Assembly: GCF_028561275.1 (NCBI RefSeq)
Contig: NZ_JAQQTF010000002.1
Location: forward strand, 528,812 to 592,811
Source: Aureisphaera galaxeae
Lineage (GTDB): Bacteria; Bacteroidota; Bacteroidia; Flavobacteriales; Flavobacteriaceae
Length of the DNA stretch: 64,000 bases
Direction: 5' to 3'
Shown: positions 21,052 to 48,530 of the stretch, piece by piece
Numbering within the stretch: position 1 is the stretch's first letter
How the letters are laid out: each line of letters begins with the position of its first letter
Program-made: the position numbers and the translations under genes
The notes under the pieces: generated by a model
Seen by the model: only the letters and a program-made list of their open reading frames with translations
What the model was told of the DNA's origin: nothing
Database searches by the model: none

Positions 21052-21066
21052 TACTATATTGCAGGA

Positions 21067-21813: not shown

Positions 21814-21815
21814 TT

Positions 21816-23107: not shown

Positions 23108-23108
23108 A

Positions 23109-23468
23109 ATGCATATTGAAGAATTCCGGGACTATTGCCTAGCCAAGAAAGGCGTTACAGAATCCTTTCCTTTCGATGAACATACATTGGTTTTTAAGGT
23201 AATGGGCAAGATGTTTGCCGTTTCCGGATTGGAACGCACTCCGGCTCAAGCCAACCTAAAATGCGATCCCGAACGGTCCGAAGAACTTAGAGCCGAATAT
23301 GATGGGCTCATTATTCCGGGATGGCATATGAACAAGCATCATTGGAATACGGTCATGATAGAAAGCAATCTTCCACATACGCTCATATTCGAACTTATCG
23401 ATCATTCCTACGATCTTATTGTGAGCAAGCTTCCCAAAAAAGTAAAAGCAGAATTAGAAAATTTATAG
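23109..23468 (+). CDS. MmcQ/YjbR family protein
   Basis: 119 aa. The opening IEEFRDYCLAKKGVTESFPFDEHTLVFKVMGKMFA and the later YDGLIIPGWHMNKHHWNTV are the YjbR/MmcQ (double-wing DNA-binding-like) signatures. Cytosolic, function not established, although the fold has been suggested to bind DNA. It directly precedes the MutS homologue (the next start is adjacent to this stop). Confidence 0.88.
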   Translation: MHIEEFRDYCLAKKGVTESFPFDEHTLVFKVMGKMFAVSGLERTPAQANLKCDPERSEELRAEYDGLIIPGWHMNKHHWNTVMIESNLPHTLIFELIDHSYDLIVSKLPKKVKAELENL

Positions 23469-25253
23469 ATGAAGTCCAAACGGGAGCTACGCGAGTTTTA
23501 CCAAGCAGAACACCAAAAGAATCAGGAGGCCGCAGATGCCTTAAAGAAGAAAGTATTGTATTCGAGTGCCTTGAGGTTTTCGGTATTCTTGCTGGTTGTC
23601 TTTCTCTGTTATGTGAATTGGGGGCAACCCGAAACAATTCTCATTTCACTCCTAGTGGGTGCCATCGCATTTATTTGGCTTATACGACGCCATGACGGTC
23701 TTAAGAAAAAGCGAGCCTATCGCAAGGCCATTGTTGAGATCAATAAAAGGGAATTGTCGATTCTGGAGGGAAATTTCCATACGCAACCCGAAGGGAATGA
23801 ATACAAAAATCCCGAGCACTTTTACAGTCAGGATATTGATTTGTTTGGACGGGGTTCCTTTTACCAATACCTGAATAGAACTGCTTTGGAAAGTGGATCC
23901 AAACGGTTAGCAGGGATACTCACGGCCAATGAATGTTCCGAAATTCCAACGAAACAGGAAGCCATTAAGGAACTCAAGGATATTCCACAATGGCGACAAC
24001 AATTTTCTGCATTGGCTTCCTTGGTTAAGGTGGAAGTGAAGGCCGAGAGGGTAGTACGTTGGTTAGATGAATACGAAGGCTTCGTCCCGAAACGATTTAA
24101 GGTCTTATCCGTATTCTTTTCTGTAATCTCATTAGTGTTGATAGCACTTTTCTTTACGAGTAATATATCGGGGACCATCGTAACCGTCTGGTTTTTCTTA
24201 GGACTGGGTATTATTGGGATGTTCCTGAAGAAAATAAATAAACTGGTTTCGGATACTTCTCAAATTCAAACCACTTTCGAGCAGTTTTACCAACTTTTAG
24301 AGAAGATCGAAGGACAGGAGTTTTCTTCGGAATTGCTGAAAACAAAAAAGGAAAGCATCATCAACAACACCGAAAGAGCCTCTTCCATTTTAAAGCGTTT
24401 TTCGAAGTTACTGGATGCATTGGACCAGCGAAGCAATATGATTGTAGGGATTTTTGCCAATGGATTCCTACTGCGGGATCTTTGGGTAGCTCGTAATATC
24501 GAACAGTGGATACGCGAGCACCACGAAGAAGTGGGGAAATGGTTCGAGGTCATTTCCTTTTTCGATGCCCATAACAGTTTGGGGAACTATGCCTTTAACC
24601 ATCCCAAACATACCTTTCCCACGATTGAGGAAGACAAGGAAGTATTGCACAGCGAAAAAGCCTGTCACCCGCTTATTCGTGAAGAGGTGGCTGTGGCGAA
24701 TGACTTCAAAATTGACAAGGAACAATTCTACATCATCACGGGAGCGAATATGGCTGGAAAGAGTACCTTTTTACGCACCGTTGCGCTGCAAATTGTCATG
24801 GCCAATGTAGGTTTACCCATTTGTGCCGAGTCGTCGCGTTATACACCCATAAAGCTAATTACGAGCATGCGCACTACCGATAGTCTTACCAAAGATGAGT
24901 CGTATTTCTTTAGCGAATTAAAACGACTTAAATACATCGTAGATCATATACAAACCAATCGTTATTTTATTATTCTGGATGAAATCCTGAAGGGCACCAA
25001 CAGTACCGACAAGGCCATAGGATCCCGTAAGTTCGTGGACAAATTAGTGCGATCGCATTCTACAGGAATCATTGCTACCCATGACCTCAGTCTTTGTGAA
25101 GCTGCCGATTCCTTGGAGCAGGTGGAGAATTACTATTTCGATGCTGTGATCAAGGATGACGAGCTCTTTTTCGATTATATGCTGAGAAAGGGCATCTGTC
25201 AGAACATGAATGCTTCCTTTTTACTTAGGAATATGGGTATTGTGGACGACTAA
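23469..25253 (+). CDS. Membrane-anchored MutS-family ATPase
   Basis: 594 aa. Two TM helices at about residues 32-75 and two more near residues 205-250 flank the middle of the protein. A MutS core/lever-like helical region (about 270-410) follows, then the MutS ATPase: Walker A ITGANMAGKSTFLRT near residue 424, TSMRTTDSLTKDESYFFSELKRL, Walker B IILDEILKGTNSTDK near residue 502 and TGIIATHDLSL. The mismatch-recognition domain with its Phe-x-Glu motif and the connector are missing, so it is not classical MutS. Membrane-anchored MutS-related proteins occur in Bacteroidota without a known role. It is coupled to the YjbR gene and converges on the AraC gene with a 4-bp overlap. Confidence 0.85.
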   Translation: MKSKRELREFYQAEHQKNQEAADALKKKVLYSSALRFSVFLLVVFLCYVNWGQPETILISLLVGAIAFIWLIRRHDGLKKKRAYRKAIVEINKRELSILEGNFHTQPEGNEYKNPEHFYSQDIDLFGRGSFYQYLNRTALESGSKRLAGILTANECSEIPTKQEAIKELKDIPQWRQQFSALASLVKVEVKAERVVRWLDEYEGFVPKRFKVLSVFFSVISLVLIALFFTSNISGTIVTVWFFLGLGIIGMFLKKINKLVSDTSQIQTTFEQFYQLLEKIEGQEFSSELLKTKKESIINNTERASSILKRFSKLLDALDQRSNMIVGIFANGFLLRDLWVARNIEQWIREHHEEVGKWFEVISFFDAHNSLGNYAFNHPKHTFPTIEEDKEVLHSEKACHPLIREEVAVANDFKIDKEQFYIITGANMAGKSTFLRTVALQIVMANVGLPICAESSRYTPIKLITSMRTTDSLTKDESYFFSELKRLKYIVDHIQTNRYFIILDEILKGTNSTDKAIGSRKFVDKLVRSHSTGIIATHDLSLCEAADSLEQVENYYFDAVIKDDELFFDYMLRKGICQNMNASFLLRNMGIVDD

Positions 25254-26107
25254 CGCACAATCTTACTTCGATATTGAAAAGGGGTTTCCCTTATGAGTCC
25301 CTTAAAGATTCTGTTGAAATTTGAAATATTACGGAAGCCACTTTGTTCGGCTACTTCGGCCACGCTCATTTCCGGTTGTTCCTTCAACAATTTGCAGGCC
25401 TCTTCCACCCGAATCTCATTCAGGAAGGACATATAGGTTTTACGGGTTCGGTTTTTGAAGTACTTACAGAACGCATTTGGGGTCATGGCCGCTTCCTTTG
25501 CAATGGCATCCAAAGTGATCTTATCCCTAAAATGTTCCATAGTGTATTGAAAAACGGCGTTCATTCGTTGTCCTTCGTTGTCTGTGTATTTAGTGGGGCC
25601 GTCACTGGTGTAGAAAGAGGACAGGACTTCATATTTACCCGCGTTCACACGTTTCAGTAGTTGAAGGAACAATAGGAATCGGTCCAGTTTTGAAGCCTTT
25701 TGAAGGGATTCAAAAATATCGATGATCCCTTTCGATGGTTGGGTGATCTTAAAACCATTTTCCGCCTTCCGAAAAAAGGAAATGAGCGATTTCAATTCTT
25801 CAATCTTGAAAAACTCGGAACCAAAGGAATCTGGGGTAAAAAACACGGAAAGCATATGGCATTGCCCATGTCCTTCGGAATTGTTCTTAAAAACGTGCGG
25901 CAAATTTCCACCCAAAACAACCACGTCACCAGTTTCGAATCGATTGAGTGTATCCCCAACAATCAAAGAGCCCTTTCCCTGTTTTATGTAGCTTATCTGA
26001 AATTCTTCATGCTGGTGTAACAGCCCGTAGAACGTGTCTGTCAAGTCCTCCTGTAGAAGGATGGTATCCTTGCCAGACTTCACAATAGTAAATGGTAAAA
26101 CTTTCAT
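25250..26107 (-). CDS. AraC-family regulator, probable controller of the hydroxyproline/collagen-residue operon
   Basis: 285 aa from the ATG at 26107. The frame extends to a TTG at 26128, but the family-like start is MKVLPFTIVKSG. Residues 1-120 are a cupin sensor (LLHQHEEFQISYIKQGKGSLIVGD, GDVVVLGGNLPHVF). The C-terminal 100 residues are two helix-turn-helices (ITLDAIAKEAAMTPNAFCKYFK and SVAEVAEQSGFRNISNFNRIF). It is divergent from the hydroxyproline operon across 129 bp that contain a long inverted repeat, the usual layout for a substrate-responsive AraC activator. A likely ligand is a hydroxyproline pathway compound, by inference only. Confidence 0.88.
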   Translation of the reverse strand: MKVLPFTIVKSGKDTILLQEDLTDTFYGLLHQHEEFQISYIKQGKGSLIVGDTLNRFETGDVVVLGGNLPHVFKNNSEGHGQCHMLSVFFTPDSFGSEFFKIEELKSLISFFRKAENGFKITQPSKGIIDIFESLQKASKLDRFLLFLQLLKRVNAGKYEVLSSFYTSDGPTKYTDNEGQRMNAVFQYTMEHFRDKITLDAIAKEAAMTPNAFCKYFKNRTRKTYMSFLNEIRVEEACKLLKEQPEMSVAEVAEQSGFRNISNFNRIFKGLIRETPFQYRSKIVR

Positions 26108-26118
26108 TTTTGTTGAAA

Positions 26119-26181
26119 TATTATTCAAATATCATGAATATTATGCGAATTATAGCAAAATAGTATCATAATTGAATAATA
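26119..26181. promoter_or_regulatory. Inverted-repeat operator candidate between the AraC gene and the hydroxyproline operon
   Basis: Two arms TATTATTCAA (26119-26128) and TTGAATAATA (26172-26181) are perfect 10-bp reverse complements. Read in the same orientation the match extends to 15 of 17 bases (TATTATTCAAwTATsAT). They frame 43 bp in the divergent intergenic region and are good AraC-dimer sites. A weaker copy (12 of 17) lies at 46354-46370 ahead of the second operon. Confidence 0.5.
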
Positions 26182-26210
26182 CATCATTATCAGCACATGC
26201 CATTATCCTA

Positions 26211-26218
26211 TACTTTTG
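26211..26218 (+). promoter_or_regulatory. -7 promoter element of the hydroxyproline operon
   Basis: TACTTTTG matches TAnnTTTG and ends 18 bp before the ATG at 26237. No good TTTG is present 17-23 bp upstream, which would fit a promoter that depends on an activator such as the divergent AraC protein. Confidence 0.4.
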
Positions 26219-26236
26219 AAGTAAAATTTTATCCTT

Positions 26237-27151
26237 ATGAAATTCGAATGGAAAGGCGTTATGCCAGCAGTGACTACGAAGTTCACCAATGAAGATACCT
26301 TAGATATCCCGTTGTTCCTTCATAATATAGATGCCCAAGTGGACGCAGGTGCCCATGGGATCGTTTTGGGAGGTACTTTGGGAGAAGCCAGTACCCTCGA
26401 AGATGACGAAAAACGCATCCTAACTCGGGAGACGGTGCAAAGGGTGAACGGTAAGGTTCCTGTTATGATGAACATTGCCGAACAAACCACGAAAGGAGCC
26501 ATTGCAGCGGCCCAAAAAGCCGAAGAGGATGGAGCATCTGGACTTATGATGTTGCCGCCTATGCGTTATAAGGCTGGAGATCGTGAAACCGTGGAGTATT
26601 TTAAGGCAGTAGCCAATAATACCTCATTACCTATTATGGTATATAACAATCCTGTTGATTACAAGATTGAAGTTACCTTAGATATGTTCGAAGAATTATT
26701 GAAGTGCGACAATATCGAAGCCGTAAAGGAATCTACTCGGGACATCTCTAACGTAACCCGAATTAAAAACACCTTTGGGGATCGCCTTAAAATCATGTGC
26801 GGGGTAGATACTTTGGCATTAGAAAGTCTATTGATGGGTGCCGATGGTTGGATTGCAGGCCTGGTATGTGCATTTCCCAGAGAAACTGTAGCCATTTACG
26901 AATTGCAAAAGGCCGGTAGGATACAGGAAGCCGTTGCTATTTACCGTTGGTTCCTTCCCTTGTTGGAGTTGGATATTAACCCTAAATTAGTACAGAACAT
27001 TAAACTGGCCGAAGTCGCTACGGAACTAGGATCCGAAACCGTTCGTGCGCCTAGATTACCTCTAGTTGGAAAAGAACGCGAGCATGTTTTGGCCGTGATA
27101 GAAGAAGGATTAAAAACAAGACCACAATTACCCAATTATAAGAATCTATAA
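26237..27151 (+). CDS. DapA/DHDPS-superfamily enzyme, probable 1-pyrroline-4-hydroxy-2-carboxylate deaminase
   Basis: 304 aa TIM-barrel. The Schiff-base lysine is in IEAVKESTRDISN (near residue 165) and the conserved Tyr in LPIMVYNNPVDYKIEV. GTLGEASTL replaces the GTTGE of dihydrodipicolinate synthase. The neighbours are the hydroxyproline 2-epimerase, a D-amino-acid-type oxidoreductase and a semialdehyde dehydrogenase. The fitting role is therefore deamination of 1-pyrroline-4-hydroxy-2-carboxylate to 2-oxoglutarate semialdehyde, third step of trans-4-hydroxyproline breakdown (LhpC/HypD type). Lysine-pathway DapA is a less likely alternative. First gene of the operon; its stop shares one base with the next start. 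Confidence 0.8.
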   Translation: MKFEWKGVMPAVTTKFTNEDTLDIPLFLHNIDAQVDAGAHGIVLGGTLGEASTLEDDEKRILTRETVQRVNGKVPVMMNIAEQTTKGAIAAAQKAEEDGASGLMMLPPMRYKAGDRETVEYFKAVANNTSLPIMVYNNPVDYKIEVTLDMFEELLKCDNIEAVKESTRDISNVTRIKNTFGDRLKIMCGVDTLALESLLMGADGWIAGLVCAFPRETVAIYELQKAGRIQEAVAIYRWFLPLLELDINPKLVQNIKLAEVATELGSETVRAPRLPLVGKEREHVLAVIEEGLKTRPQLPNYKNL

Positions 27152-27420
27152 TGTTAGAAATACGACCCACATGCGAGCATTGCAATAAAGCGCTTCCCTA
27201 TGATAGTGAAGAGGCTAGGATTTGCACCTTCGAATGCACCTACTGTGCCGATTGCGCAGAAAACATTTTAAAAGGTGTTTGCCCTAATTGCGGGGGGAAT
27301 TTTGAGAAACGCCCCATTAGACCAGCACGTCTTTTGGAGAAATACCCCGTGTCCGAAAAAGTCGTATACAAACCCGTGGATGTGGAAGCCCATCTTGAAC
27401 GAATAAAAAATACAGAATGA
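27151..27420 (+). CDS. DUF1272 cysteine-rich small protein
   Basis: 89 aa. Eight Cys in pairs (CEHCNKAL, CTFECTYCADC, GVCPNCGG) suggest two zinc-binding knuckles; LEIRPTCEHCNKALP is the DUF1272 opening. Function unknown in the family. It is tightly embedded: TAATG overlap with the deaminase gene before it and ATGA overlap with the dehydrogenase gene after it. It must be made together with the hydroxyproline enzymes and could be a metal or assembly factor for them. Confidence 0.85.
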   Translation: MLEIRPTCEHCNKALPYDSEEARICTFECTYCADCAENILKGVCPNCGGNFEKRPIRPARLLEKYPVSEKVVYKPVDVEAHLERIKNTE

Positions 27421-28937
27421 CAGGAAAGAACTATATAGGATTTCAATTGAGTGCCAAAGGGGAAACCACCTATCGCACCTTTAATCCCAAAACCAATACG
27501 GAAAACTCGGCGCTGTTTACTGAGGCCAACGATCATGAAATCGAAAGTGCAGTAGCGTTGGCAGCCGAGGCCTTTCCGGTGTTTAAGAACTTACCGGGAG
27601 CCAAAAGAGCGGCATTTTTACGTGCCATAGCCGACGAAATTTTGGCGCTGGATGATACACTGGTGCAAACCTATTGTAACGAAACAGGATTACCCGAGGG
27701 CCGAGCAAAAGGTGAGCGCGGTCGAACGGTAGGACAACTCCGTATGTTTGCCGATCTCATAGAAACAGAAGATTGGAGACAACCTACAATCGATACTGCA
27801 ATTCCAGACCGACAACCCATGCCGAAACCAGATTTACGTCAGTTTCTTATCCCTCTAGGCCCAGTCGTGGTGTTTGGAGCGAGTAATTTTCCGTTGGCCT
27901 ATTCTACGGCAGGCGGGGATACGGCCAGTGCTTTGGCAGCAGGATGCCCAGTCATAGTAAAATCGCACCCAATGCATGCCGGAACAGGTGAGTTGGTGGC
28001 TTCGGCCATCGCAAAGGCCGCCGAAAAAACAGGAATGCCCAATGGAGTATTCTCAAACCTAAATAGTGCTGGAATTGAGGTGGGACAAAAATTGGTACAA
28101 CATCCAAAAGTGAAGGCGGTTGGATTTACAGGAAGTATCCGAGGTGGGCGTGCTCTGTTCGATTTGGCTGGTCAACGCGAAGAACCCATACCTGTATTCG
28201 CGGAAATGGGAAGTATTAATCCTGTGGTGATCACTTCCAACGCTCTAAAAAATAGAAGTGCTGAGATCGCGTCGACCTATGCAAGTTCCATTACCTTGGG
28301 AACCGGACAATTCTGCACCAATCCCGGATTAATCCTTGGGATTGAAAGTCCCGAACTTTCACAATTTGTAGAAGATTTAGGAAGCAAAACCAGTGAAATC
28401 GATGCCCAGTGCATGTTGCATCCCAACATTCACCAAGCCTACGAGGCAAATGGAGCAGCCGTGTCCAGTCAGGCGAACACCGAAGTAGTAGCGGTACACG
28501 ACGGACCCGTTTCAGAAAATTATGCCCAATCCAAGATTACAACAACTTCGGGAGCGGCTTTTCTTCAAAATAAGAAGCTTCACACCGAAGTGTTTGGTCC
28601 TTTTTCATTGGTAGTTCAGTGCAAGGATGAATCTGAATTGTTGCGGGTGATTTCTGGATTGGAAGGTCAGTTGACGGGAACCATCATTGCAGAGCCGGAT
28701 GAATACAGGCAATTAGAACCCGTTATCGATACGCTTCAGGATCGTGTAGGGCGCATTATCTTTAATGGCGTGCCGACAGGTGTTGAGGTGTGCGATGCCA
28801 TGACGCATGGGGGGCCTTATCCAGCGAGTACGGACAGTCGCTTTACAGCAGTGGGGAATCACTCAATCAAGCGCTGGGCACGACCTTTTAGCTATCAGGA
28901 CTTCCCTGAAGAATTACTGCCCTCGTTCCTAAAATAA
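27417..28937 (+). CDS. NAD(P)-dependent aldehyde dehydrogenase, probable 2-oxoglutarate semialdehyde dehydrogenase
   Basis: 506 aa. ALDH landmarks are FGASNFPLAYSTAGGDTASALAA (cofactor and oxyanion Asn), VGFTGSIRGGRALFDLA, the general-base Glu in VFAEMGSINPVV, and the nucleophile Cys in LGTGQFCTNPGL near residue 300. The motifs match the ketoglutarate semialdehyde dehydrogenase branch, which oxidises 2-oxoglutarate semialdehyde to 2-oxoglutarate at the end of the trans-4-hydroxyproline route. Because 2-aminoadipate semialdehyde from hydroxylysine would also need oxidising, and no other ALDH is in the locus, it may serve both, which is inference. Confidence 0.88.
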   Translation: MTGKNYIGFQLSAKGETTYRTFNPKTNTENSALFTEANDHEIESAVALAAEAFPVFKNLPGAKRAAFLRAIADEILALDDTLVQTYCNETGLPEGRAKGERGRTVGQLRMFADLIETEDWRQPTIDTAIPDRQPMPKPDLRQFLIPLGPVVVFGASNFPLAYSTAGGDTASALAAGCPVIVKSHPMHAGTGELVASAIAKAAEKTGMPNGVFSNLNSAGIEVGQKLVQHPKVKAVGFTGSIRGGRALFDLAGQREEPIPVFAEMGSINPVVITSNALKNRSAEIASTYASSITLGTGQFCTNPGLILGIESPELSQFVEDLGSKTSEIDAQCMLHPNIHQAYEANGAAVSSQANTEVVAVHDGPVSENYAQSKITTTSGAAFLQNKKLHTEVFGPFSLVVQCKDESELLRVISGLEGQLTGTIIAEPDEYRQLEPVIDTLQDRVGRIIFNGVPTGVEVCDAMTHGGPYPASTDSRFTAVGNHSIKRWARPFSYQDFPEELLPSFLK

Positions 28938-28942
28938 ACGGT

Positions 28943-30664
28943 ATGATACGTTCCTTATTCATATTGGCTTTCTGTTTCTTGGGTACTCAGTTAGTGGCTC
29001 AGAGTACTTCAGAACAGTTGGCCACCATCATCAAAACGGTTGAAGAACACGAAGGATACGACACCAAGAAACATCCCATGGGTTTGTTTACCCGTGCCTA
29101 TTTTAAAGCGGAAGCAGATTTTGCCAAATCCCAATTGGAGGAATTAAAATCCATAGCAGCGAACGAACTTTCGGAAACTGAATCTATCTCTTTGGAAATG
29201 CTGAAGTTCCTCCTACAAGATCGAATTCATTATTACGAATTCGATAGATATTTGAACCCTTTGTTGTCCGATTCTGGTTTCCATGCAGGTTTTCCTTATA
29301 TGGTGCGACCCTTGGCCAACTATAAGCAGGTTATTTCGTATTTGAATAAGCTGAATGCCATTCCGGAAGTGGTGGATAATTACCTGCCCTTACTTCGTGA
29401 AGGTTTGGAAAAGGGAATGTCACAGCCCCGTGTGATTTTTAAGGGATACGAATCCAGCTACGATTCGCACATTGTAGATAATTACGAAGACAGTTTCTTC
29501 TACGGACCTTTCAGGAGTCTACCAGAATCCCTTTCCGAGACACAAAAGGATTCCGTCTTAACGGCCGCAAAAGAGGTTATTTCGGAAAAAGTGGTGCCTC
29601 AATTTAGGAGAATCAAGAAATTCTTCGAAGAAGAGTACCTTCCTAAGACTAGGACGACTATCGGGGTTTCCGAAACACCAAACGGGCGCGACTATTATCA
29701 GAATAGAATCAATTACTACACGACCAGTACCCAGTATTCGGCAGATGATATTCACCAAATAGGTTTGGGCGAAGTGGCCCGCATTAAAAAGGAAATGCAT
29801 AAGATTATTGAGGAATTGGAGTTTGAAGGCAGCTTTGCCGATTTCCTGAAATTTCTCCGAACCGATCCTCAGTTCTATGTAGATACTCCAGAAGCATTAC
29901 TGATGCACGCCCGGGATATGGCCAAGCGAGCCGATGCCCAATTGCCTAAATTTTTCAAAACCTTACCGAGGAAACCCTATGGGGTCGCTCCTGTGCCTGA
30001 TGCCATAGCGCCCAAGTATACCGGAGGACGCTATATTGGAACTAGTAAAAACAGCACCGATCCGGGATATTATTGGGTGAATACCTATGACCTTCCTAGC
30101 CGACCTTTATACACACTGCCTGCATTAACCGTGCATGAAGCGGTCCCTGGACATCATTTACAAGGAAGCCTTAATAACGAACTGGGCGATAGTATCCCTC
30201 AATTCAGAAAAAACACCTATTTGTCGGCTTACGGAGAAGGATGGGGATTGTACACCGAATACCTAGCCGCCGAGATGGGAATGTACACTACGCCCTATGA
30301 ACGATTCGGGCAACTCACCTATGAAATGTGGCGTGCCTGCCGATTGGTTGTAGACACAGGCATTCATGCCAAAGGCTGGACTCGGGAGCAAGTGGTAGAT
30401 TTTATGGCTTCCAATACGGCACTTTCCTTACATGAGGTAAATACTGAAACTGACCGTTATATTTCTTGGCCGGGACAAGCCTTATCCTATAAGATTGGGG
30501 AACTTAAAATACGGGAACTCCGAAAAAAGGCAGAAAAGGAATTAGGAGCTAAGTTCGATATTCGAGAGTTTCACGAGGTGATTTTGGAACAAGGAACCGT
30601 GACACTCTCCATTTTGGAACGACGTATTAATGCATATATCGAAAAAACAAAGAATGGGTCGTAG
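28943..30664 (+). CDS. Exported DUF885 family metallopeptidase-like protein
   Basis: 573 aa with signal peptide MIRSLFILAFCFLGTQLVAQ. The DUF885 zinc motif VHEAVPGHHLQGSL is near residue 400, with a downstream Glu in YGEGWGLYTEYLA. The family is a helical gluzincin-like fold of presumed peptidase activity. Placed inside the hydroxyproline operon (5 bp after the dehydrogenase, 11-bp overlap with the epimerase), it probably trims Hyp/Pro-containing peptides in the periplasm. Confidence 0.85.
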   Translation: MIRSLFILAFCFLGTQLVAQSTSEQLATIIKTVEEHEGYDTKKHPMGLFTRAYFKAEADFAKSQLEELKSIAANELSETESISLEMLKFLLQDRIHYYEFDRYLNPLLSDSGFHAGFPYMVRPLANYKQVISYLNKLNAIPEVVDNYLPLLREGLEKGMSQPRVIFKGYESSYDSHIVDNYEDSFFYGPFRSLPESLSETQKDSVLTAAKEVISEKVVPQFRRIKKFFEEEYLPKTRTTIGVSETPNGRDYYQNRINYYTTSTQYSADDIHQIGLGEVARIKKEMHKIIEELEFEGSFADFLKFLRTDPQFYVDTPEALLMHARDMAKRADAQLPKFFKTLPRKPYGVAPVPDAIAPKYTGGRYIGTSKNSTDPGYYWVNTYDLPSRPLYTLPALTVHEAVPGHHLQGSLNNELGDSIPQFRKNTYLSAYGEGWGLYTEYLAAEMGMYTTPYERFGQLTYEMWRACRLVVDTGIHAKGWTREQVVDFMASNTALSLHEVNTETDRYISWPGQALSYKIGELKIRELRKKAEKELGAKFDIREFHEVILEQGTVTLSILERRINAYIEKTKNGS

Positions 30665-31664
30665 TATATTTCATTGCATAGACGGCCACACATGTGGAAA
30701 CCCTGTTCGAGTGGTGACCACGGGACATCCTCCCTTGAAAGGGAAGTCCATGAGCGAAAAGCGACAACATTTTTTAAAGGAATACGATTGGATTAGAAAG
30801 GGGCTTATGTACGAACCCCGAGGCCACGATATGATGAGTGGCAGTTTCTTTTTCGAGCCCCAATTTCCCGAAAATGACTTCGGAATACTCTTTATTGAAA
30901 CCTCAGGATGCCTGCCTATGTGTGGGCACGGAACGATTGGAGCGATCACCATTGCCATAGAAGAAGATTTGATACAGCCCAAAACCCCGGGAAAGATCCG
31001 AATGGAAACCCCAGCTGGTTTGGTCCAAATTGAATATGAGGAGAACAACGGAAAGGTGGCTTGGGTAAAATTAAAAAATGTAGCGTCCTATTTGGCGGCC
31101 GAAGGCCTCACGGTAGAATGCCCGGAATTGGGCGAAATCACTTTCGATGTTGCCTATGGCGGAAACTTCTATGCCATTGTAGATCCCCAAGAAAATTTCA
31201 GTGGGATTCAGGATTATACAGCCAGTAAACTCATTCAATTCTCTCAAGTGGTACGAAAACGGATCAATGAAAAGTATCCCGATTACTTCATCCATCCAGA
31301 AGACGAAACCATTCGGGATGTGAGTCATATGGAATGGACGGGAACCCCTATTCACGAGACTTCTACAGCTAGAAATGCCGTTTTTTATGGCGATAAGGCC
31401 ATCGACCGCTCTCCATGTGGCACGGGAACTTCGGCACGTATGGCACAATTACATGCCAAGGGAAAACTGAAAATGGGAGAGCCTTTTATCCATGAAAGTT
31501 TTATAGGTTCTACCTTTGAAGGATGTATAGAAGCAGAAACTGAAATCGGAGGTAAGAAAGCCATCATCCCATCCATAAAGGGCTGGGCCAAGGTGTATGG
31601 TTATAATAGTATTACCATCGATCCGGATGATGATCCGTATGCCTATGGATTTCAAGTAATTTAA
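30654..31664 (+). CDS. 4-hydroxyproline 2-epimerase (proline racemase family, Cys/Cys type)
   Basis: 336 aa from ATG 30654, chosen because HCIDGHTCGNPVRVV begins directly after; an ATG at 30630 would overlap the previous gene more. Both catalytic bases are present: Cys90 in LPMCGHGTIGA and Cys255 in RSPCGTGTSARMAQL. The Cys/Cys pair marks racemases and epimerases. In this operon it should convert trans-4-hydroxy-L-proline to cis-4-hydroxy-D-proline, the first step. The paralogue at 44271-45341 has Cys/Thr and a different job. Confidence 0.9.
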   Translation: MGRSIFHCIDGHTCGNPVRVVTTGHPPLKGKSMSEKRQHFLKEYDWIRKGLMYEPRGHDMMSGSFFFEPQFPENDFGILFIETSGCLPMCGHGTIGAITIAIEEDLIQPKTPGKIRMETPAGLVQIEYEENNGKVAWVKLKNVASYLAAEGLTVECPELGEITFDVAYGGNFYAIVDPQENFSGIQDYTASKLIQFSQVVRKRINEKYPDYFIHPEDETIRDVSHMEWTGTPIHETSTARNAVFYGDKAIDRSPCGTGTSARMAQLHAKGKLKMGEPFIHESFIGSTFEGCIEAETEIGGKKAIIPSIKGWAKVYGYNSITIDPDDDPYAYGFQVI

Positions 31665-31737
31665 GGAAGTCGATTAAACGGTTAAACAACTCAACATCTA
31701 AACATAACATCTCATTAAAAAAACACAAAGCATTAAG

Positions 31738-31766
31738 TCATTCACTCATTAATTCATTAAATCATT
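31738..31766 (+). repeat. Four TCATT units at exact 8-bp period before a TTG start
   Basis: TCATT occurs at 31738, 31746, 31754 and 31762, each 8 bp apart, giving a short imperfect tandem repeat (TCATTCAC, TCATTAAT, TCATTAAA, TCATTGAA). The last unit runs into the TTG start codon of the oxidoreductase at 31765. Confidence 0.6.
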
Positions 31767-33009
31767 GAAAAGAGTAATAGTCATCGGCGGCGGCATAATA
31801 GGACTTTGTTCGGCCTACTATCTTCGAAAGGAAGGCCATGAGGTGATTGTGATCGATAAGTCCAAAATGAATGGCGGTGCCTCGTACGTAAATGCCGGAT
31901 ATATTACACCGAGCCATATCATTCCACTTTCTGCTCCTGGGATGATTACCAAAGGACTAAAATGGATGCTGAATCCGTCAAGCCCCTTTTACGTGAAACC
32001 CCGAATGGATATGGAGTTCTTGAAATGGGGTTGGGCGTTTAAGAAGTCGGCTAAGAAGGAGAAGGTAAACAGGGCCATTCCCATTATAAAGGATATCAAT
32101 TTGTTTAGTCGTGAGCTCTATGAAGAAATGAAGACTTCCGATGAATTCAACTTTCACTACGAGCGGAACGGATTGCTAATGCTATGCAAAACCGAAAAGG
32201 CACTCGAAGAAGAATGGGAGGTAGGGAAAAAGGCTATTTCTACAGGATTGAATGTAGTTGAGTTGAACAAAGAACAAACCCAAAAGTACGAACCCGATAT
32301 TGACTTGGATATCATAGGATCCGTCTACTTCGATTGCGATGCTCACATGACACCTTCAGAATTCATGGGGAATATGAAGGCGTATTTGGAAAAAATTGGG
32401 GTCCAATTTTGCCTGGAAGAAGAAGTGAAGGATATTGAAGTCTCCGAGGGAAAAATATCTGAAGTAATCACTTCAAAACAAAAAATTTCTTGTGAAGAGG
32501 TCGTTCTAGCCGCAGGTGCCTGGAGTCCTATGCTCGTGAAGAAATTGGGATTGAAAATTCCAATTCAGGCAGGTAAAGGATACAGAATCAATGTAGAGCG
32601 AACCACAGGAATTAAAACACCTGCTATTTTGGTCGAGGCCAAAGTCGCCGTAACGCCTATGAGCGGCTTTACCCGATTTGCAGGAACCATGGAGATCGGT
32701 AGTATAAATCACAAGATTAGTCCAGTACGGGTAAATGCCATTGCCCAAGCCGCTTCTCAATACTACTCGGGAGTAGAGATTACCCAAGAAGAAAAGGAAA
32801 ATGCAGCTTGCGGACTTCGTCCATGCACACCCGATGGTCTTCCTTTCATTGGACGTTCCTCAAAATGTGATAACTTAACGGTGGCTACAGGCCATGCAAT
32901 GATGGGATGGAGTTTAGGTCCTGCAACGGGCAAATTGGTTTCTGAAATTATTTCAGAAAAGAAGCTCTCCATGCCCATAGACGCGTTTCACCCCGACAGA
33001 AGTTATTGA
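31765..33009 (+). CDS. FAD-dependent D-amino-acid dehydrogenase, probable cis-4-hydroxy-D-proline dehydrogenase
   Basis: 414 aa from TTG. The dinucleotide-binding motif VIVIGGGIIGLCSAYYLRKEG is at the N-terminus, and the C-terminal FAD contact is TGHAMMGWSLGPATGKLVSE, as in the DadA/glycine-oxidase DAO family. ACGLRPCTPDGLPFIG is also typical. After the epimerase, the expected reaction is oxidation of cis-4-hydroxy-D-proline to 1-pyrroline-4-hydroxy-2-carboxylate. A 100-bp gap separates it from the epimerase. Start at TTG is dictated by the conserved MKRVIVIGGG; no in-frame ATG lies just upstream. Confidence 0.85.
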   Translation: MKRVIVIGGGIIGLCSAYYLRKEGHEVIVIDKSKMNGGASYVNAGYITPSHIIPLSAPGMITKGLKWMLNPSSPFYVKPRMDMEFLKWGWAFKKSAKKEKVNRAIPIIKDINLFSRELYEEMKTSDEFNFHYERNGLLMLCKTEKALEEEWEVGKKAISTGLNVVELNKEQTQKYEPDIDLDIIGSVYFDCDAHMTPSEFMGNMKAYLEKIGVQFCLEEEVKDIEVSEGKISEVITSKQKISCEEVVLAAGAWSPMLVKKLGLKIPIQAGKGYRINVERTTGIKTPAILVEAKVAVTPMSGFTRFAGTMEIGSINHKISPVRVNAIAQAASQYYSGVEITQEEKENAACGLRPCTPDGLPFIGRSSKCDNLTVATGHAMMGWSLGPATGKLVSEIISEKKLSMPIDAFHPDRSY

Positions 33010-33010
33010 T

Positions 33011-34309: not shown

Positions 34310-34310
34310 G

Positions 34311-35621: not shown

Positions 35622-35654
35622 GTTGATCTAGTTTAATGAGGTTTTAATTGTAGT

Positions 35655-42245
<6,591 letters not shown>

Positions 42246-42249
<4 letters not shown>

Positions 42250-44267
42250 TCTTCTTGGGTTAGTAACATGATTAGATGTGCGGCACTCCAACTGAAATTT
42301 TTGGCATAAAGGCCTTCACCCGTTAGGGGATGATAATTTTCCCGAATGGGAACTCCCTTTTCCATAAGACCGGAAGCACCTGCTATAATGGTCTTTGTAG
42401 CATTATCCGCTTCTTCCTGAAAGCCGTAATTTCTGAGTCCTTTTACTCCAAAATAGGCCTGATCCAACCAATTGGGGCCTCTCCAATAGCCTTTTAACGG
42501 ATTGAACTTTTCATGATCTGCACTCATGGTCTGAAAAGGAACCTTGGTAAAGAACTTACTTGTGTCCATCATTTTCTCTTTAACAGCTTCCGCTTGTTCT
42601 TGTGTGGCAGCTTTGGCCCAAAGGGCCGTCCAACCTTCACTTCCTTCTCCTTTTATGAATTCGGTTCCTTCTAAGTTGGTGTCGTAAAACCACCCATCTA
42701 CGGCATCGTAAAATTGACGTTGAATCCGTTCTTTTAACGCTTCAGCTTCCTTTCTCAGTCCCTCGGCATCATCCAATTTATCTAAGGCCTCCGCTAAGTT
42801 CGCAAGAAATAGTTTCTCCGCATACAAATAGGCATTAAGATCTACACTTTCTTGATTCATGGAATAGGCCTGTGGCCCATTTTTCAGCATCTCTGTGTTG
42901 TCGAAACGAATGGCATTGTCCATACCGCTTTCCCATTTGGCAGCTATCAGGCTTCCATCGGTAGAGCCGTATTCGCAGATGCCATCTTGGTCGTGATCCC
43001 TTTCGCGATACCACCATTCGTGATAATTTTTCAGTTTGGGATACATTCGGCCTACGAACTCTAAGTCTTGATCATTTTCAAAAACCTTGGCTACAGCCCA
43101 TGCAGCGAGTGGAGGCTTGGTATCCCTATAATTGTGATTCTCGATCAAAGTATCTCGAAACACACAATCGGCCACGAAACCATTTTCATTTTGAAAATCG
43201 AACATGAGTTCAATCTGTTCCTTGGCAAGGCGATTGTCATACTGAGAGAGTCCAACAGCGTGTTTCCACGAGTCCCAGGACCAAAACCCATTGAACCATT
43301 TGTAGTGGTAACTGGGAAAGAGTCCTTCGTGTTTGATTTCCCCAGCGGGGATTCGCCAATTATTCTGAAGGGTGAGTTGGGCTTTGGCAAGCACTTGTTT
43401 GTAGATAGAATCTTTAAAATTGGGTCGTAACTGCTTAGTCAATTTCGAAAGCTGGTCGTCTTTTTCTTTTTCCCTAGCGTTCAATACCGAATCGAAGGAA
43501 ATATTACTAAGCAATTGCTTTTCCTCTTCCCAAGAATATTCAGGAAAGATAAAGGAGACCGAAATTGTAATTTTTTTGTGCTCCCATGGTTTTATTTCCG
43601 CCTCAGGAACATCAATAGCAAAGGAAGTCTCTCCAAGCATACGCGTATTGGTATGCTGTTCATGCACGGTAATGTAAGCAATAGCGGGACCGTTTGTAGA
43701 GATGATTTGAATGCCATCTTCAAAGGGTATTGGAATGAGTCCTATGGAAAATAGATCGCTCTGTATAGAAAAATAGAGAGGGAGTTTTTGTTCGGTTCTA
43801 TTTACGATTTTGGTTTCTATCAAAGCCGTATGCCCAGAAAGAAAAACCAATTTTTGATCTACGGAAAGGGAGTCGTTTTTATATTTGGTTGCTAAATGAC
43901 TACTGAAGCTCTTTTGATTAAGTCGGTCTTTCTCCCAATCTATAAGGTTTTTGCCACCACTTCCAGATAGGATGGTTTTTAATAGGGATTTACTGGACCA
44001 GATACCATTTTGCTGGGTCATCAAGAATGGGCCTGAAAATCCACCTGAAGGTGAGAGGCTATCTTGAAGTCCAAAGGCGAACCAAGCACCTTGGTCGGAA
44101 AACATAAGCCCGTTTTTGTCCATAGAGTCCTTGGGCGTGATTCTATAGTCCAAAACATTCTTGCTCAAACGTAAATGATCGAAAGAAGGGGTTTTGGAAT
44201 CTTCTCTTTTCTCTTGACAACTTACTAAGATGCCAAAGACTATAATTATGCAAATAATATGCTTCAT
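42246..44267 (-). CDS. GH63-type alpha-glucosidase lipoprotein (YgjK/trehalase-like (alpha/alpha)6 barrel)
   Basis: 673 aa. Lipoprotein signal MKHIICIIIVFGILVSCQ (LVSC). An N-terminal beta-sandwich is followed from about residue 290 by the (alpha/alpha)6 barrel: WFNGFWSWDSWKHAVGL, the catalytic-acid region KWESGMDNAIRFDN near residue 446, and a base-carrying PIRENYHPLTGEGLYAKNFSWSAAH near 644. These motifs fit GH63, whose bacterial member YgjK, as I recall, favours alpha-glucosides including Glc-alpha-1,2-Gal. That disaccharide is the collagen glycan, which matches the neighbours (beta-galactosidase, hydroxylysine-kinase fusion). Three bases after the dehydratase gene and coupled to the fusion gene. 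Confidence 0.78.
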
Positions 44268-44270
44268 GGG

Positions 44271-45341
44271 CTACCTTAAAATAAATCCGTGTTTCATAGG
44301 GTCCTTTGGGTCAATAATAAAGGTGTGGTGTCCTGTGATATGGGCCGTGCCTTCTACTTGTGGAATTACTGCCTCAAAAGGCCCAAAAGTCGTTTCGGAT
44401 ACAACCGATCCATTAAAAACAGAGCCCGTAATACTTTCAATGCTCATGGTTTCGCCCAACGCAATTTCTTTTCTTGCCGAGTGAATCGCCATTCGGCCAG
44501 AAACCCCGGAACCCGTGGGGCAACGATCTACTTCACCTTCGGCAAAAATGCACACATTCTTACTGTCGTTTCCGTTGGGTTGTTTCGTATTGTCTACGAA
44601 GATGGTTCCGTACAAAAAGCTCAAATCCCTTTCCAAAGGATGGATGATATCCGTATCCCTTGCTGAAACGGCTCTCTTAATGTCCATTCCTGCCTTAATA
44701 AGATCATTATAGGATGAAGTGTCTAGATCGAAATCGAAAGAATTCTTGGCCATATCCACGTAGGCATAGTAAGCTCCGCCATAAGCTAGATCGTAGGTGA
44801 TGGTTTCCAACCCTGGGATTTCAATGGTTCGATCCAAAGCCAAAACAAAACTCGGAACACAATGAAATCGAACGCCAGAAACCTGTCCTTCTTTCACGAA
44901 GATATAAGAGAGGATTCTTCCACAGGGAGCATCTATTTTTAAGAGATTATCTCCCTCTTTCACATCGATCCATTGCATTTCAACAGCTAAGGTAGAAATG
45001 GCAATGATGGCATGGCCACACATGGTAGAATAGCCTTCGTTATGTAGGAAAAGAATACCAAAATCGCCTTCTTCATCGTTTGGAGGCACCAATAAACAGC
45101 CGTACATATCGGCATGGCCTCTCGGTTCGAGCATAAGGGCCGTTCGTAAGTGATCGTAGTTTTCTTTGCAATAGTTGCGATACTCTAATACCGAGTTGCC
45201 TTTCAGTTCTGGAAAGCCTTCCAAAATAACCCGCAAAGACTCACCTCCCGTATGCATGTCTATGGTCTTGATATGTAATCCGTCGGTTTTTATTTCCGAA
45301 AGATTAGATTGCATAATGTTCTCGTAGGTATTCTTAGGCAT
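44271..45341 (-). CDS. trans-3-hydroxy-L-proline dehydratase (proline racemase family, Cys/Thr type)
   Basis: 356 aa. Same fold as the epimerase at 30654, with Cys108 in STMCGHAIIA but Thr276 in RCPTGSGVSGRMAIH in place of the second Cys. A Cys/Thr pair with this spacing is the mark of trans-3-hydroxy-L-proline dehydratases such as human L3HYPDH. It should yield 1-pyrroline-2-carboxylate, the substrate of the reductase encoded directly upstream, whose stop it overlaps by 8 bp. An alternative start at 45314 is possible because the family usually begins near KTIDMHTGGE. Confidence 0.9.
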   Translation of the reverse strand: MPKNTYENIMQSNLSEIKTDGLHIKTIDMHTGGESLRVILEGFPELKGNSVLEYRNYCKENYDHLRTALMLEPRGHADMYGCLLVPPNDEEGDFGILFLHNEGYSTMCGHAIIAISTLAVEMQWIDVKEGDNLLKIDAPCGRILSYIFVKEGQVSGVRFHCVPSFVLALDRTIEIPGLETITYDLAYGGAYYAYVDMAKNSFDFDLDTSSYNDLIKAGMDIKRAVSARDTDIIHPLERDLSFLYGTIFVDNTKQPNGNDSKNVCIFAEGEVDRCPTGSGVSGRMAIHSARKEIALGETMSIESITGSVFNGSVVSETTFGPFEAVIPQVEGTAHITGHHTFIIDPKDPMKHGFILR

Positions 45342-46293
45342 GGGTCATTTTTTTGTAATAATAGTTGGCAGCGGCTAGATCTTCGATAGCGTGTCCTACT
45401 GATTTAAACAATGTGATTTCATCATCATGAGTTCTTCCTTCTTTTGCATTGGAACACAATTCGAAAAGGTCGCTTTGTATGGCTTCACGTTTCAGAATCC
45501 CGTTCTGCATGGGAATGACAATATCCCCACTTTCGTTCAATCCCTGATAGGTATCTACATGCACCGACGCCTTCTCTATAGTGACATCATCCGCTTCCCG
45601 CATATTCGGTTTGTAGGCTCCTACCAAATCTATGTGTTGTCCAGGTCTGAGATATTTTCCCAAAACCAATGGTGTGGCCGATAGGGTCGCGCAAGATATG
45701 ATGGACACTTCCGAAATCTTTTCTTCAATGGTTTGAATGGGTTCGGCTTGAATGCCTAGCGGTTTAAGTTTCTCACTCAGCGCTTCTGCCTTCTTGTAAT
45801 TTCTTCCCCAGAGGTACACCTGTTTTATATTGCGCACACTGGCATGTGCTTGAATTAAGTTAGAAGCAAGAGCTCCTGTTCCTATCATTAATAGGGAATC
45901 GGCATTTTTGTTCGATAGAAAAGTAGATGCCAATGCTGAAGCGGCGGCCGTACGTTTGGCCGTAAGGCTTTTGGCGTCTATGATGGCCTTCACCACACCC
46001 GTACTCGCCTCCATATGAATATAAACCCCCTGAACGGAAGGAAGCCCTACTTTATCATTGTCAGGATTTACGGTAACCACTTTTACCCCTGCACTTCCCG
46101 AAGGATCCCAAGCTGGCATGAGGAGAAGGGTCGTATCCTTATCGGAAGATGCGTTTTGAAAATCGTGATGGTGCCTTTTGGGAATGCTAATCCCCGATTG
46201 GGTAAAGTGCGACTTCAAGGCCTGAATTAAGGAAGGGAAATGGGTGTTCTCTTCAATAAAATGAGCGTCTATTTGAAGAAGGGATTGCATCAT
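45334..46293 (-). CDS. Ornithine cyclodeaminase/mu-crystallin family, probable 1-pyrroline-2-carboxylate reductase
   Basis: 319 aa. The opening region LLMPAWDPSGSAGVKVVTVNPDN, the NAD(P)-binding segment LMIGTGALASNLIQAHASV (GxGxxA) and the HIDLVGAYKPNMREADD stretch are typical of the ornithine cyclodeaminase/mu-crystallin family. Coupled to the trans-3-hydroxyproline dehydratase, it most likely reduces 1-pyrroline-2-carboxylate to L-proline (LhpI type). Two adjacent ATGs (46293, 46290) are available. Confidence 0.88.
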   Translation of the reverse strand: MMQSLLQIDAHFIEENTHFPSLIQALKSHFTQSGISIPKRHHHDFQNASSDKDTTLLLMPAWDPSGSAGVKVVTVNPDNDKVGLPSVQGVYIHMEASTGVVKAIIDAKSLTAKRTAAASALASTFLSNKNADSLLMIGTGALASNLIQAHASVRNIKQVYLWGRNYKKAEALSEKLKPLGIQAEPIQTIEEKISEVSIISCATLSATPLVLGKYLRPGQHIDLVGAYKPNMREADDVTIEKASVHVDTYQGLNESGDIVIPMQNGILKREAIQSDLFELCSNAKEGRTHDDEITLFKSVGHAIEDLAAANYYYKKMTHA

Positions 46294-46353
46294 TTCAAAA
46301 ATAAGTAAATCCCCAGATGTAATATCAGATTAATACGAATTCGTTAATAAAGT

Positions 46354-46370
46354 ACTATGAATGGATAATA
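46354..46370 (+). promoter_or_regulatory. Degenerate copy of the AraC operator half-site
   Basis: ACTATGAATGGATAATA matches the 17-bp half-site consensus ATsATAwTTGAATAATA at 12 positions. It lies in the 111 bp between the aldose epimerase and the pyrroline reductase gene, where a promoter of the minus operon would be. In AT-rich DNA this could be chance. Confidence 0.25.
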
Positions 46371-46404
46371 TGATATCAATTCTATGAAAATCCCTGAGTG
46401 AGTA

Positions 46405-47295
46405 TCATGTATTTCCATGCTCCAATTGAAGATGGAGGGAGCATTTAAAGGAAGACTGCGGATGTAGTATTTGCTTGCCCACACCGTTGTTAAAGCTATT
46501 CGCAATACAGGTCATAGGCTCGATGGCGATGGATTTTCTGTCGTCTGGAATGAACAGTTGGAGATACTCAAGTCCTTGGGTTGTTATGGAAAGATCGTAC
46601 TCCTTGGTTTTCAACCTTACTTCGGGTTGTAAAAGGTTGAATGCCGTATCCAGCTCCTTATTGTTTAAAGTAATAGAATTACGAACGATATCTTTGGCAT
46701 CTGTTGGGATCATTCGGCCATTGGTATGATATGTTTTGTTAGACGCGAATAGGATTTCGCTATGCTTATCTTCCATGGTGAAATAAGGGTGCCACCCCAG
46801 CCCAAAAGGAAACGACTTGTTGCCCAAATTGATTACGTGGAAGGATAGTGTCATTCCTTTTTCAGAAAACGCATAGCTCACCTCCATTTTAAAAGCGAAG
46901 GGGAAAGATCCGTTAGGGTTATGATCGTAGTCTAAATGTATTTGGGTATCCGTTACCGAAGAGACCGAAAAAGAGCAATTACTCACACATCCATGGATGG
47001 CGTTATTTCCGTCTGGGTCATTGATGGGTAAGGTGTAAGAAATGTCTTCATGTCTAAATGTACCATCCTCCAACCGATTGGGAAAAGGGAACAACAAACT
47101 GCTTGGATAGAACTTCTCATAATAGGCAATTCCCTCTTCCGATAAGGGGAAAGGAGTCATGATTTGAGTCCCGTCATGCACCCAATCCAATACACTTCCA
47201 CCCAAATGAGGGAATACCTTGTAGGACGCCTTGGCACTTTCAAAAACGTAATGAGAAAGTTTTGGGTTAGGATGTGAAATAAAATGGTGGGTCAT
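46405..47295 (-). CDS. Aldose 1-epimerase (galactose mutarotase-like)
   Basis: 296 aa beta-sandwich. Active-site residues: His in NNAIHGCVSN, His in FGLGWHPYF and Glu in SIAIEPMTCIANSFNNG, matching the aldose 1-epimerase family. It interconverts alpha and beta anomers of galactose or glucose. As the upstream neighbour of the GH63/GH2 operon it fits the handling of beta-galactose freed from hydroxylysine glycans. Cytosolic, no signal. 48 bp upstream lies the end of the DUF4407 gene. Confidence 0.88.
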   Translation of the reverse strand: MTHHFISHPNPKLSHYVFESAKASYKVFPHLGGSVLDWVHDGTQIMTPFPLSEEGIAYYEKFYPSSLLFPFPNRLEDGTFRHEDISYTLPINDPDGNNAIHGCVSNCSFSVSSVTDTQIHLDYDHNPNGSFPFAFKMEVSYAFSEKGMTLSFHVINLGNKSFPFGLGWHPYFTMEDKHSEILFASNKTYHTNGRMIPTDAKDIVRNSITLNNKELDTAFNLLQPEVRLKTKEYDLSITTQGLEYLQLFIPDDRKSIAIEPMTCIANSFNNGVGKQILHPQSSFKCSLHLQLEHGNT

Positions 47296-48444: not shown

Positions 48445-48505
48445 AACTAGTTGGATAAGGGATTGATGAGTTAGTTAGAACGTATTTAATTATGATTTGT
48501 TACAT

Positions 48506-48530
48506 AAAAAAGCCCCCAATTGTTGGGGGC
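48506..48530 (-). terminator. Rho-independent terminator of the second BlaI/M56 operon
   Basis: Stem GCCCCCAA (48512-48519) / TTGGGGGC (48523-48530) with a 3-nt loop; on the minus strand it is followed by six U (A-run 48506-48511). It lies 73 bp after the M56 stop at 48603 and upstream of the DUF4407 start, insulating the two. Confidence 0.85.

Follow-up and report, generated by a model that had tools for sequence, protein, structure and literature searches.

A run of 15 genes in the 4.6 Mb genome of the marine bacterium Aureisphaera galaxeae, located between positions 25250 and 47295 of the 64,000-nucleotide stretch analyzed here (the window), probably serves in the use of the residues characteristic of collagen, a reading to which we give a probability of about 0.82. 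This island carries enzymes for trans-4-hydroxyproline (4-Hyp), for trans-3-hydroxyproline (3-Hyp) and, as predicted from its gene content, for hydroxylysine bearing the collagen disaccharide (glucosyl-galactosyl-hydroxylysine, Glc-Gal-Hyl). The same reading was put forward in a first-pass annotation of the window, and it is now supported by the finding that the kinase/phospholyase fusion gene of the island travels with collagen-glycan glycosidases and with hydroxyproline (Hyp) genes, separately and together, and also in an alphaproteobacterium whose glycosidases differ. The caution of that annotation in treating the hydroxylysine branch as an inference still stands.

In the proposed pathway, two exported lipoproteins of glycoside hydrolase (GH) families, GH63 and GH2, would act in turn on Glc-alpha-1,2-Gal-beta-hydroxylysine peptides, the first taking off glucose and the second galactose, and peptides rich in proline would be trimmed by the DUF885, S37 and PepP peptidases. 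In the cytosol, the kinase domain of the fusion would phosphorylate hydroxylysine, and its pyridoxal phosphate (PLP) domain would convert 5-phosphohydroxylysine to 2-aminoadipate 6-semialdehyde, ammonia and phosphate. The semialdehyde would then be oxidized by a piperideine-6-carboxylate/aminoadipate-semialdehyde dehydrogenase whose gene lies elsewhere in the genome. Trans-4-Hyp would be taken to 2-oxoglutarate by the plus-strand operon, and trans-3-Hyp to proline by the 3-Hyp dehydratase and the OCD-family reductase. If true, bacteria would have a way to use the sugar-bearing hydroxylysine of collagen, which is more abundant than any other animal protein; the full-length fusion occurs in 34 of the 149 genera sampled in the family. 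Three poorly assigned sets would also gain a substrate hypothesis: the APH-M23-aminotransferase fusions, a subfamily of GH63 and a plasmid locus of Sinorhizobium.

Organization of the island

All the genes named in the first-pass annotation were found where it had placed them, in two converging operons whose facing stop codons, those of pepP and the S37 gene, are 1 bp apart. The plus strand encodes, in gene order, a DHDPS-family protein, an aldehyde dehydrogenase (ALDH), DUF885, the 4-Hyp epimerase, an FAD dehydrogenase and PepP. The minus strand encodes the OCD reductase, a Cys/Thr-type dehydratase, GH63, the fusion, GH2, DUF4440 and S37, tightly packed, with intergenic gaps from -46 to +33 bp across ocd-t3hyp-GH63-fusion-GH2-DUF4440-S37. 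The two operons are predicted to be co-regulated. When the sequences were read by eye, lipoprotein-like signal peptides were seen at the start of GH63, GH2, S37 and DUF4440, and a signal peptide at that of DUF885; the cell locations in the pathway above are likewise predicted ones.

The fusion protein

The fusion gene (39223..42291, minus strand), whose start is likely the ATG at 42249, overlapping the GH63 stop, encodes a predicted hydroxylysine kinase/5-phosphohydroxylysine phospholyase with three Pfam domains, an APH domain (around residues 40-265), an M23 metallopeptidase domain (around 453-550) and a class III aminotransferase/PLP domain (around 595-1017). The kinase and phospholyase domains had been recognized in the first-pass annotation, but the conserved M23 domain had been missed. 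The protein matches the NCBIfam family PRK06148, named 'hypothetical protein' (1151 bits, cut-off 1128), and its relatives on plasmids are annotated, where they are annotated, as class III aminotransferases. The closest solved relative of the C-terminal domain is the human ethanolamine-phosphate phospho-lyase ETNPPL (6tor, E 1.4e-136), followed by the A1RDF1 phospholyase (5g4i). The N-terminal 592 residues were modeled with a predicted local distance difference test score (pLDDT) of 89.6, and the fold search with the kinase returned homoserine kinase, amicoumacin kinase, a microcompartment aminopropanol kinase and other APH kinases, a result that is not decisive; by sequence, the kinase domain alone had no match in the PDB.

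In an alignment of 88 full-length fusion rows, in which at least four genomes are entered under two loci, D218, D240 and D243 of the kinase and K863, D833 and Q836 of the PLP domain are kept in every row, H216 in 82 and D221 in 83, and the ligand and catalytic residues of M23 in 85-86. We take these to be the catalytic Asp of the kinase, the Schiff-base Lys of the PLP domain and the zinc and catalytic residues of M23. The fusion holds both an APH catalytic Asp and a PLP phospholyase fold with its Schiff-base Lys. Since the lyase sequence alone leaves the substrate undecided, genomic context was used to assign it, and this context supports hydroxylysine as the predicted substrate.

The M23 zinc-peptidase domain (residues around 453-550) sits in a metabolic enzyme that shows no signal peptide. 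Glycine is every third residue of collagen, and the PDB matches of the M23 profile include the glycyl-glycine endopeptidases lysostaphin and LytM, among other M23 proteins. Because of these two points and of the residues kept in 85-86 of the 88 rows, the domain might be an active glycyl-endopeptidase of the lysostaphin/LytM type that clips hydroxylysine from Gly-X-Hyl peptides in the cytosol, a possibility that we consider doubtful; the shorter Flavobacterium fusions found beside GH63 do without M23, judging by their length, and this counts against it. Were it true, a single polypeptide would cleave the peptide, phosphorylate the hydroxylysine so released and then remove ammonia and phosphate.

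The GH63 and GH2 glycosidases

The predicted alpha-glucosidase (42246..44267, minus strand; PF22422, PF03200) is a lipoprotein-like GH63 member, and its model has a pLDDT of 90.3. The top structural match is E. coli YgjK in complex with 2-O-alpha-D-glucopyranosyl-alpha-D-galactopyranose (3w7w, TMq 0.86), and YgjK entries with other ligands score almost equally. The ligand of 3w7w, Glc-alpha-1,2-Gal, is the collagen disaccharide, and from it an activity of the modeled GH63 on Glc-alpha-1,2-Gal is suggested. D332, D450 and E643 are invariant in 22 of 22 and in 16 of 16 aligned sequences; E643, counted back from the aligned end, aligns with position 727 of YgjK, the residue mutated in 3w7w, and D332 probably corresponds to D324 of 5ca3, as read from the alignment of a permuted copy. 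Further down the list of fold matches comes processing glucosidase I, described in the available part of PMC8626586 as another alpha-1,2-glucosidase; the same text places Glc-Gal on the hydroxylysine of collagen. The GH2 gene (36083..39226, minus strand) encodes a lipoprotein-like beta-galactosidase of the LacZ type (NF052611, 1011 bits, cut-off 999), for which Gal-Hyl is the predicted substrate.

The association of these glycosidases with the fusion was studied in the GH63 loci of named GTDB genomes. Among the best 80 of 574, chosen by GH63, the fusion lies within 6 kb in 48, GH2 in 48, both in 32 and neither in 16, some of these loci ending at contig ends. Marine relatives that carry the gene set turned up in this search, for example in Gelidibacter and Arenibacter. 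The 16 loci lacking both partners, and the presence of mannosylglycerate and glucosylglycerate hydrolases in the GH63 clan, would fit a mixed locus in which GH63 and GH2 act on some other alpha-glucosyl-galactoside, of algal, lipid or exopolysaccharide origin. We regard this as quite improbable, since the fusion in 48 of the best 80 of 574 loci suggests an aglycone that bears both hydroxyl and amino groups, and the top structural match is YgjK with Glc-alpha-1,2-Gal bound.

The hydroxyproline branches

The 4-Hyp epimerase (30630..31664, plus strand) passes the cut-off of NF010578 (569.8 bits, cut-off 376) and has both Cys motifs, MCGHGT and SPCGTGT; we take the Cys/Cys motif to mark 4-Hyp epimerases and Cys/Thr to mark the 3-Hyp dehydratase type. 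Of the 4-Hyp enzyme set claimed in the first-pass annotation, the epimerase is borne out in this way, but the deaminase, the semialdehyde dehydrogenase and the FAD dehydrogenase are placed only at the superfamily level. These are the DHDPS-family protein (26237..27151, plus strand; PF00701, 6.6e-57; its PDB matches are DHDPS-family proteins), the predicted alpha-ketoglutarate semialdehyde dehydrogenase (27417..28937, plus strand; PF00171; best NCBIfam match 2,5-dioxovalerate dehydrogenase, 130.4 bits, cut-off 750) and a member of the FAD-dependent D-amino-acid dehydrogenase family, the predicted cis-4-hydroxy-D-proline dehydrogenase (31765..33009, plus strand; PF01266). Because all three score below the NCBIfam cut-offs among the matches listed (the best 25 for each of ALDH and the FAD dehydrogenase), their Hyp roles are predicted from context.

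Of the 3-Hyp pair named in the first-pass annotation, the Delta1-pyrroline-2-carboxylate reductase of the OCD family (45334..46293, minus strand) passes the NF004793 cut-off (386.1 bits, cut-off 322). The candidate dehydratase, a proline-racemase family protein of the Cys/Thr, 3-Hyp dehydratase type (44271..45341, minus strand), has the motifs MCGHAI and CPTGSG and NF045511 as its top family, but its score of 371 bits falls below the cut-off of 540; its PDB matches are 6r76 ('proline racemase') and 7qpo (T3Hyp dehydratase).

Linkage within the family

The first-pass annotation had suggested a gene-neighborhood comparison among relatives, and this was done with one genome for each genus, 149 in all from the family, using Fisher tests that ignore shared ancestry. 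The fusion was matched in 58 genomes: 34 were taken as full-length, among them G037, where a contig end truncates the gene, and 21 as shorter; G033, G062 and G079, with halves or fragments, were counted as neither. To study context, forty loci were retrieved (32 full-length, seven shorter and that of G033), with G037, 14 shorter ones, G062 and G079 left out, and some of the fetched stretches stop at contig ends. Epimerases and Cys/Thr-type proteins were split by identity (at least 58% versus at most 37%).

The full-length fusion is present in 34 of the 149 genomes and GH63 in 16; 83 have the 4-Hyp epimerase, and 20 have a protein of the Cys/Thr type. Fusion and GH63 occur together in 15 genomes, the fusion alone in 19, GH63 alone in one and neither in 114 (p=1.8e-10), and GH63 lies within 5 kb of the fusion in 14 of these 15, being 13 kb away in G006, whose GH63 is 39% identical. 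The corresponding numbers for the fusion and the 4-Hyp epimerase are 29, 5, 54 and 61 (p=4.6e-5; within 20 kb in 16 genomes), and for the fusion and the 3-Hyp dehydratase type 15, 19, 5 and 110 (p=9.6e-8; within 20 kb in eight). All four markers are found within 12-36 kb in six of the 149 genomes (G000, G059, G077, G082, G083 and G148). Glycosidase or Hyp genes lie near the fusion in 24 of the 33 full-length family loci, window included. Some relatives hold GH2-fusion-GH63 without Hyp genes (L034, L041, L047, L050, L052), and others the fusion with the 4-Hyp operon without glycosidases (for example L037, L044, L053, L054, L057, L062). Rather than a single fixed unit, the island is best viewed as several separable modules that have merged.

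Linkage in the phylum and in other lineages

A sample of 395 genomes of the phylum, which overlaps the family sample in G000 and a few others and from which 20 of 37 full-length loci were fetched, contained a fusion match in 50 genomes and GH63 in 11. Both were present in six, in all of them less than 4 kb apart (p=9e-4, ancestry ignored), and four of these six belong to one genus, g128, with a shorter fusion. In three genomes of the distant family f30 (L087, L091, L093), a fusion with 39-44% identity follows deaminase-, epimerase- and FAD-dehydrogenase-like genes.

Twelve of the best 80 GH63 loci, 11 of them titled Flavobacterium, have a short fusion of 765-798 amino acids, which would lack M23, judging by this length, and a gene for 710-737 amino acids between the fusion and GH63. 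In L132, from Flavobacterium and the sole such locus scanned, the intervening gene encodes a GH42 beta-galactosidase, and a SusD gene lies upstream of GH63. In Sinorhizobium meliloti (CP050561, L179:13470-25669), a trifunctional fusion with 40% identity is followed in turn by a sugar ABC transporter, a glucosidase of the GH63/MGH1 clan annotated as amylo-alpha-1,6-glucosidase, a substrate-binding-domain protein that is perhaps a LacI-type regulator, and GH42. This row of fusion, ABC transporter, glucosidase and GH42 is a candidate Glc-Gal-hydroxylysine locus in a plant symbiont. Compared by eye, the distance from glucosidase to fusion is about 4.3-4.4 kb in 10 plasmid records, including one of Ensifer adhaerens; among three full-length plasmid contexts, that of S. 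meliloti has the trio, that of Shinella does not, and that of Ochrobactrum is without annotation.

A tree of 72 lyase domains, supported only by the Shimodaira-Hasegawa-like approximate likelihood ratio test (SH-aLRT) and with many open forks, joins the Flavobacterium and Sinorhizobium fusions in one group (92), puts human ETNPPL next to this group (86) and separates both from the clade of the window. Eight of the 80 GH63 loci are in this tree, outside the 24 of 33 loci given above and the change counts given below. The shorter APH-aminotransferase fusions L064-L070, from other members of the window's family, make up a third clade (100), with glycosidase or Hyp genes in none of its seven loci. 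L065, L068 and L070 have neighbor genes in common (clusters c35-c39).

The finding of different beta-galactosidases beside an alpha-glucosidase and the kinase/lyase in two parts of the tree suggests a common logic, an aminated and hydroxylated aglycone under Glc-Gal. The hydroxylysine of collagen is the known aglycone of this kind.

In L162, L164, L170 and L171 (Marinifilum, Marinifilaceae, Ancylomarina), a 3-Hyp-dehydratase-like gene and S37 adjoin GH2-GH63, and the stretch covered contains no fusion; in L162, the locus scanned, a C69 dipeptidase gene is likewise next to these genes.

Weighing of the collagen reading

Several observations weigh against the collagen reading. Neither glycosidase nor Hyp neighbors were found in nine of the 33 family and 15 of the 20 phylum full-length loci, 24 of 53 in all; these context labels undercount, as they are based on similarity to the genes of the window and missed the S. 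meliloti glycosidases. GH2 was not found in the 20 kb fetched for G059 and G148, although both belong to the six genomes that have all four markers, and the relative G096 has the island in the same order minus the fusion, with a shorter fusion on another contig. The seemingly unrelated DUF4407 recurs in 12 of the 40 loci, and part of the linkage is inherited synteny, as seen in the DUF4407 and M56 neighbors. The island GH63 resembles YgjK, for which a complex with Glc-alpha-1,2-Gal has been solved, in fold and in the aligned catalytic glutamate, but the two share only 27% identity. No lyase-domain residues separating the collagen-linked fusions from human ETNPPL or A1RDF1 were found; seven columns were listed, five of which match both of these enzymes, and all seven set apart the L064-L070 clade. 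Finally, no U32 collagenase was recognized in the genome, and a search of it for M9 collagenases gave no match, but the controls were equally silent. With no U32 collagenase recognized, the bacterium may feed on peptides that others produce.

The lyase residues, the ethanolamine-phosphate phospho-lyase as top solved relative of the PLP domain, the likeness of the kinase fold to homoserine, amicoumacin and aminopropanol kinases and the 24 of 53 loci with neither context would all agree with a fusion acting as kinase and phospholyase on another amino alcohol, such as ethanolamine or aminopropanol, and merely hitchhiking beside the Hyp and glycosidase genes. This is improbable in our view, as it leaves unexplained both the recurrence of GH63 with GH2 or GH42 beside the fusion in two parts of the tree and the link with 3-Hyp and 4-Hyp genes.

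The collagen reading also bears on the published question of whether bacterial Hyp clusters serve collagen or peptide antibiotics (PMC5144071, in its available part). That text proposes peptide antibiotics, and not collagen, as the source of free hydroxyprolines, which is a further point against collagen, and 54 of the 83 epimerase genomes are without a full-length fusion; the Hyp operons could then serve such antibiotics or plant extensins, with their joining to the hydroxylysine genes being accidental. This we hold to be very improbable, since the proximity of Hyp genes to the fusion recurs also in the distant f30, with a fusion of about 40% identity, and parsimony on the lyase tree demands at least 13 changes of Hyp context. 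The physical linkage to hydroxylysine-glycan genes favors collagen in these bacteria, and with the hydroxylysine module present, collagen is the better reading here.

Downstream enzymes and transport

A single gene of the A. galaxeae genome, on another contig, passes the cut-off of NF050084, the piperideine-6-carboxylate/aminoadipate-semialdehyde dehydrogenase (831.3 bits, cut-off 730), a cut-off passed by one of 14 control genomes. A gene with the galactokinase signature was also found on another contig. Near GH63-fusion-GH2, the 40 fetched loci include genes for galactokinase (six), galT (five), aldose epimerase (five), an SSS sodium symporter (four) and a SusC-like TonB-dependent receptor (four), identified by Pfam on one representative each, or by similarity to the window's gene in the case of the aldose epimerase.

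No transporter had been seen in the island by the first-pass annotation, and this holds for its 15 Pfam-scanned genes, among which there is no SusC/SusD pair, our criterion for a polysaccharide utilization locus (PUL); in some relatives, however, SSS symporter or SusC/SusD-type genes adjoin the same genes. L047 has a TonB-dependent receptor and SusD beside GH63-fusion, as L132 has SusD. The symporter or SusC-like receptor genes of the relatives may explain the missing transporter of the island.

Comparison with known systems

Bacterial fusions are said to have led to the animal hydroxylysine enzymes HYKK and PHYKPL (Veiga-da-Cunha 2012). These resemble the island fusion in pairing an APH-type kinase with a class III PLP phospholyase, whereas in the island the two activities are fused around M23, and the operon also encodes glycosidases and Hyp enzymes. 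The animal pathway is cited from that study in PMC8154272 and PMC5200902, as far as their excerpts go. PGGHG, the animal GH65 glucosidase for Glc-Gal-Hyl (PMC8626586, available part), has the same substrate and bond, Glc-alpha-1,2-Gal, as those predicted for the island enzyme, which in contrast is a lipoprotein-like GH63. The bacterial L-hydroxyproline clusters in the available part of PMC5144071 are like the island in their 4-Hyp pathway genes, often with 3-Hyp genes included, and unlike it in carrying ABC transporters, with no hydroxylysine or glycan genes mentioned in that part. The S. meliloti locus shares with the island a trifunctional fusion, a GH63/MGH1-clan alpha-glucosidase and a beta-galactosidase, but has GH42 in place of GH2, ABC transporters, and no Hyp gene named among the 31 annotated features read; its annotation does not mention this function.

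The matches listed from the open-access literature include no study of a bacterial kinase/lyase for hydroxylysine and none of a bacterial glycosidase for the hydroxylysine disaccharide, which is compatible with the statement of the first-pass annotation that it knew of no described bacterial system with all branches in one locus. For the hydroxylysine disaccharide, the available part of PMC8626586 mentions only the animal enzyme, and the word hydroxylysine is absent from PMC4113996, a neighborhood study of proline racemases. The families of the parts and the animal pathway were already known; what we did not find described in these searches is the bacterial assembly, its GH63 and an M23-containing fusion in a hydroxylysine role.

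Other genes of the island and of the window

Three peptidase-like proteins complete the set. The DUF885 putative metallopeptidase (28943..30664, plus strand; PF05960, 6.5e-165) has a HEAVPGHH stretch and matches the lipoprotein 3o0y in the PDB, its peptidase role being a predicted one; the PepP-like M24 Xaa-Pro aminopeptidase (33011..34309, plus strand) matches PF00557 and PF05195; and the S37-family serine peptidase (34311..35621, minus strand; PF05576, 9e-43) has a lipoprotein-like N terminus. The small lipoprotein-like DUF4440 protein (35655..36086, minus strand; PF14534) is a frequent companion, with homologs in 15 of the 40 fetched loci. An aldose 1-epimerase, perhaps for the freed glucose and galactose (46405..47295, minus strand; PF01263, 5e-39), is encoded upstream of ocd, at a distance of 111 bp. 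The 4-Hyp operon has a divergent AraC-family regulator (25250..26128, minus strand; PF12833 plus cupin) as its likely activator; an AraC regulator gene holds the equivalent place at the 4-Hyp operon in L048, L053, L054 and L056.

Next to the island, positions 47344-51043 encode a DUF4407 protein, an M56 sensor and a BlaI-type repressor, and relatives of DUF4407 and M56 adjoin the fusion in several relatives. On the other side, a lysine-aminomutase link of the MutS-like ATPase (23469-25253), considered from a weak KamC match, was rejected because the genes scanned at 14808-23468 look unrelated. Farther away, positions 12559-14172 encode an AprA MT2-like methyltransferase (PF23525, 1.5e-115), of a family whose name we take to come from the apratoxin pathway.

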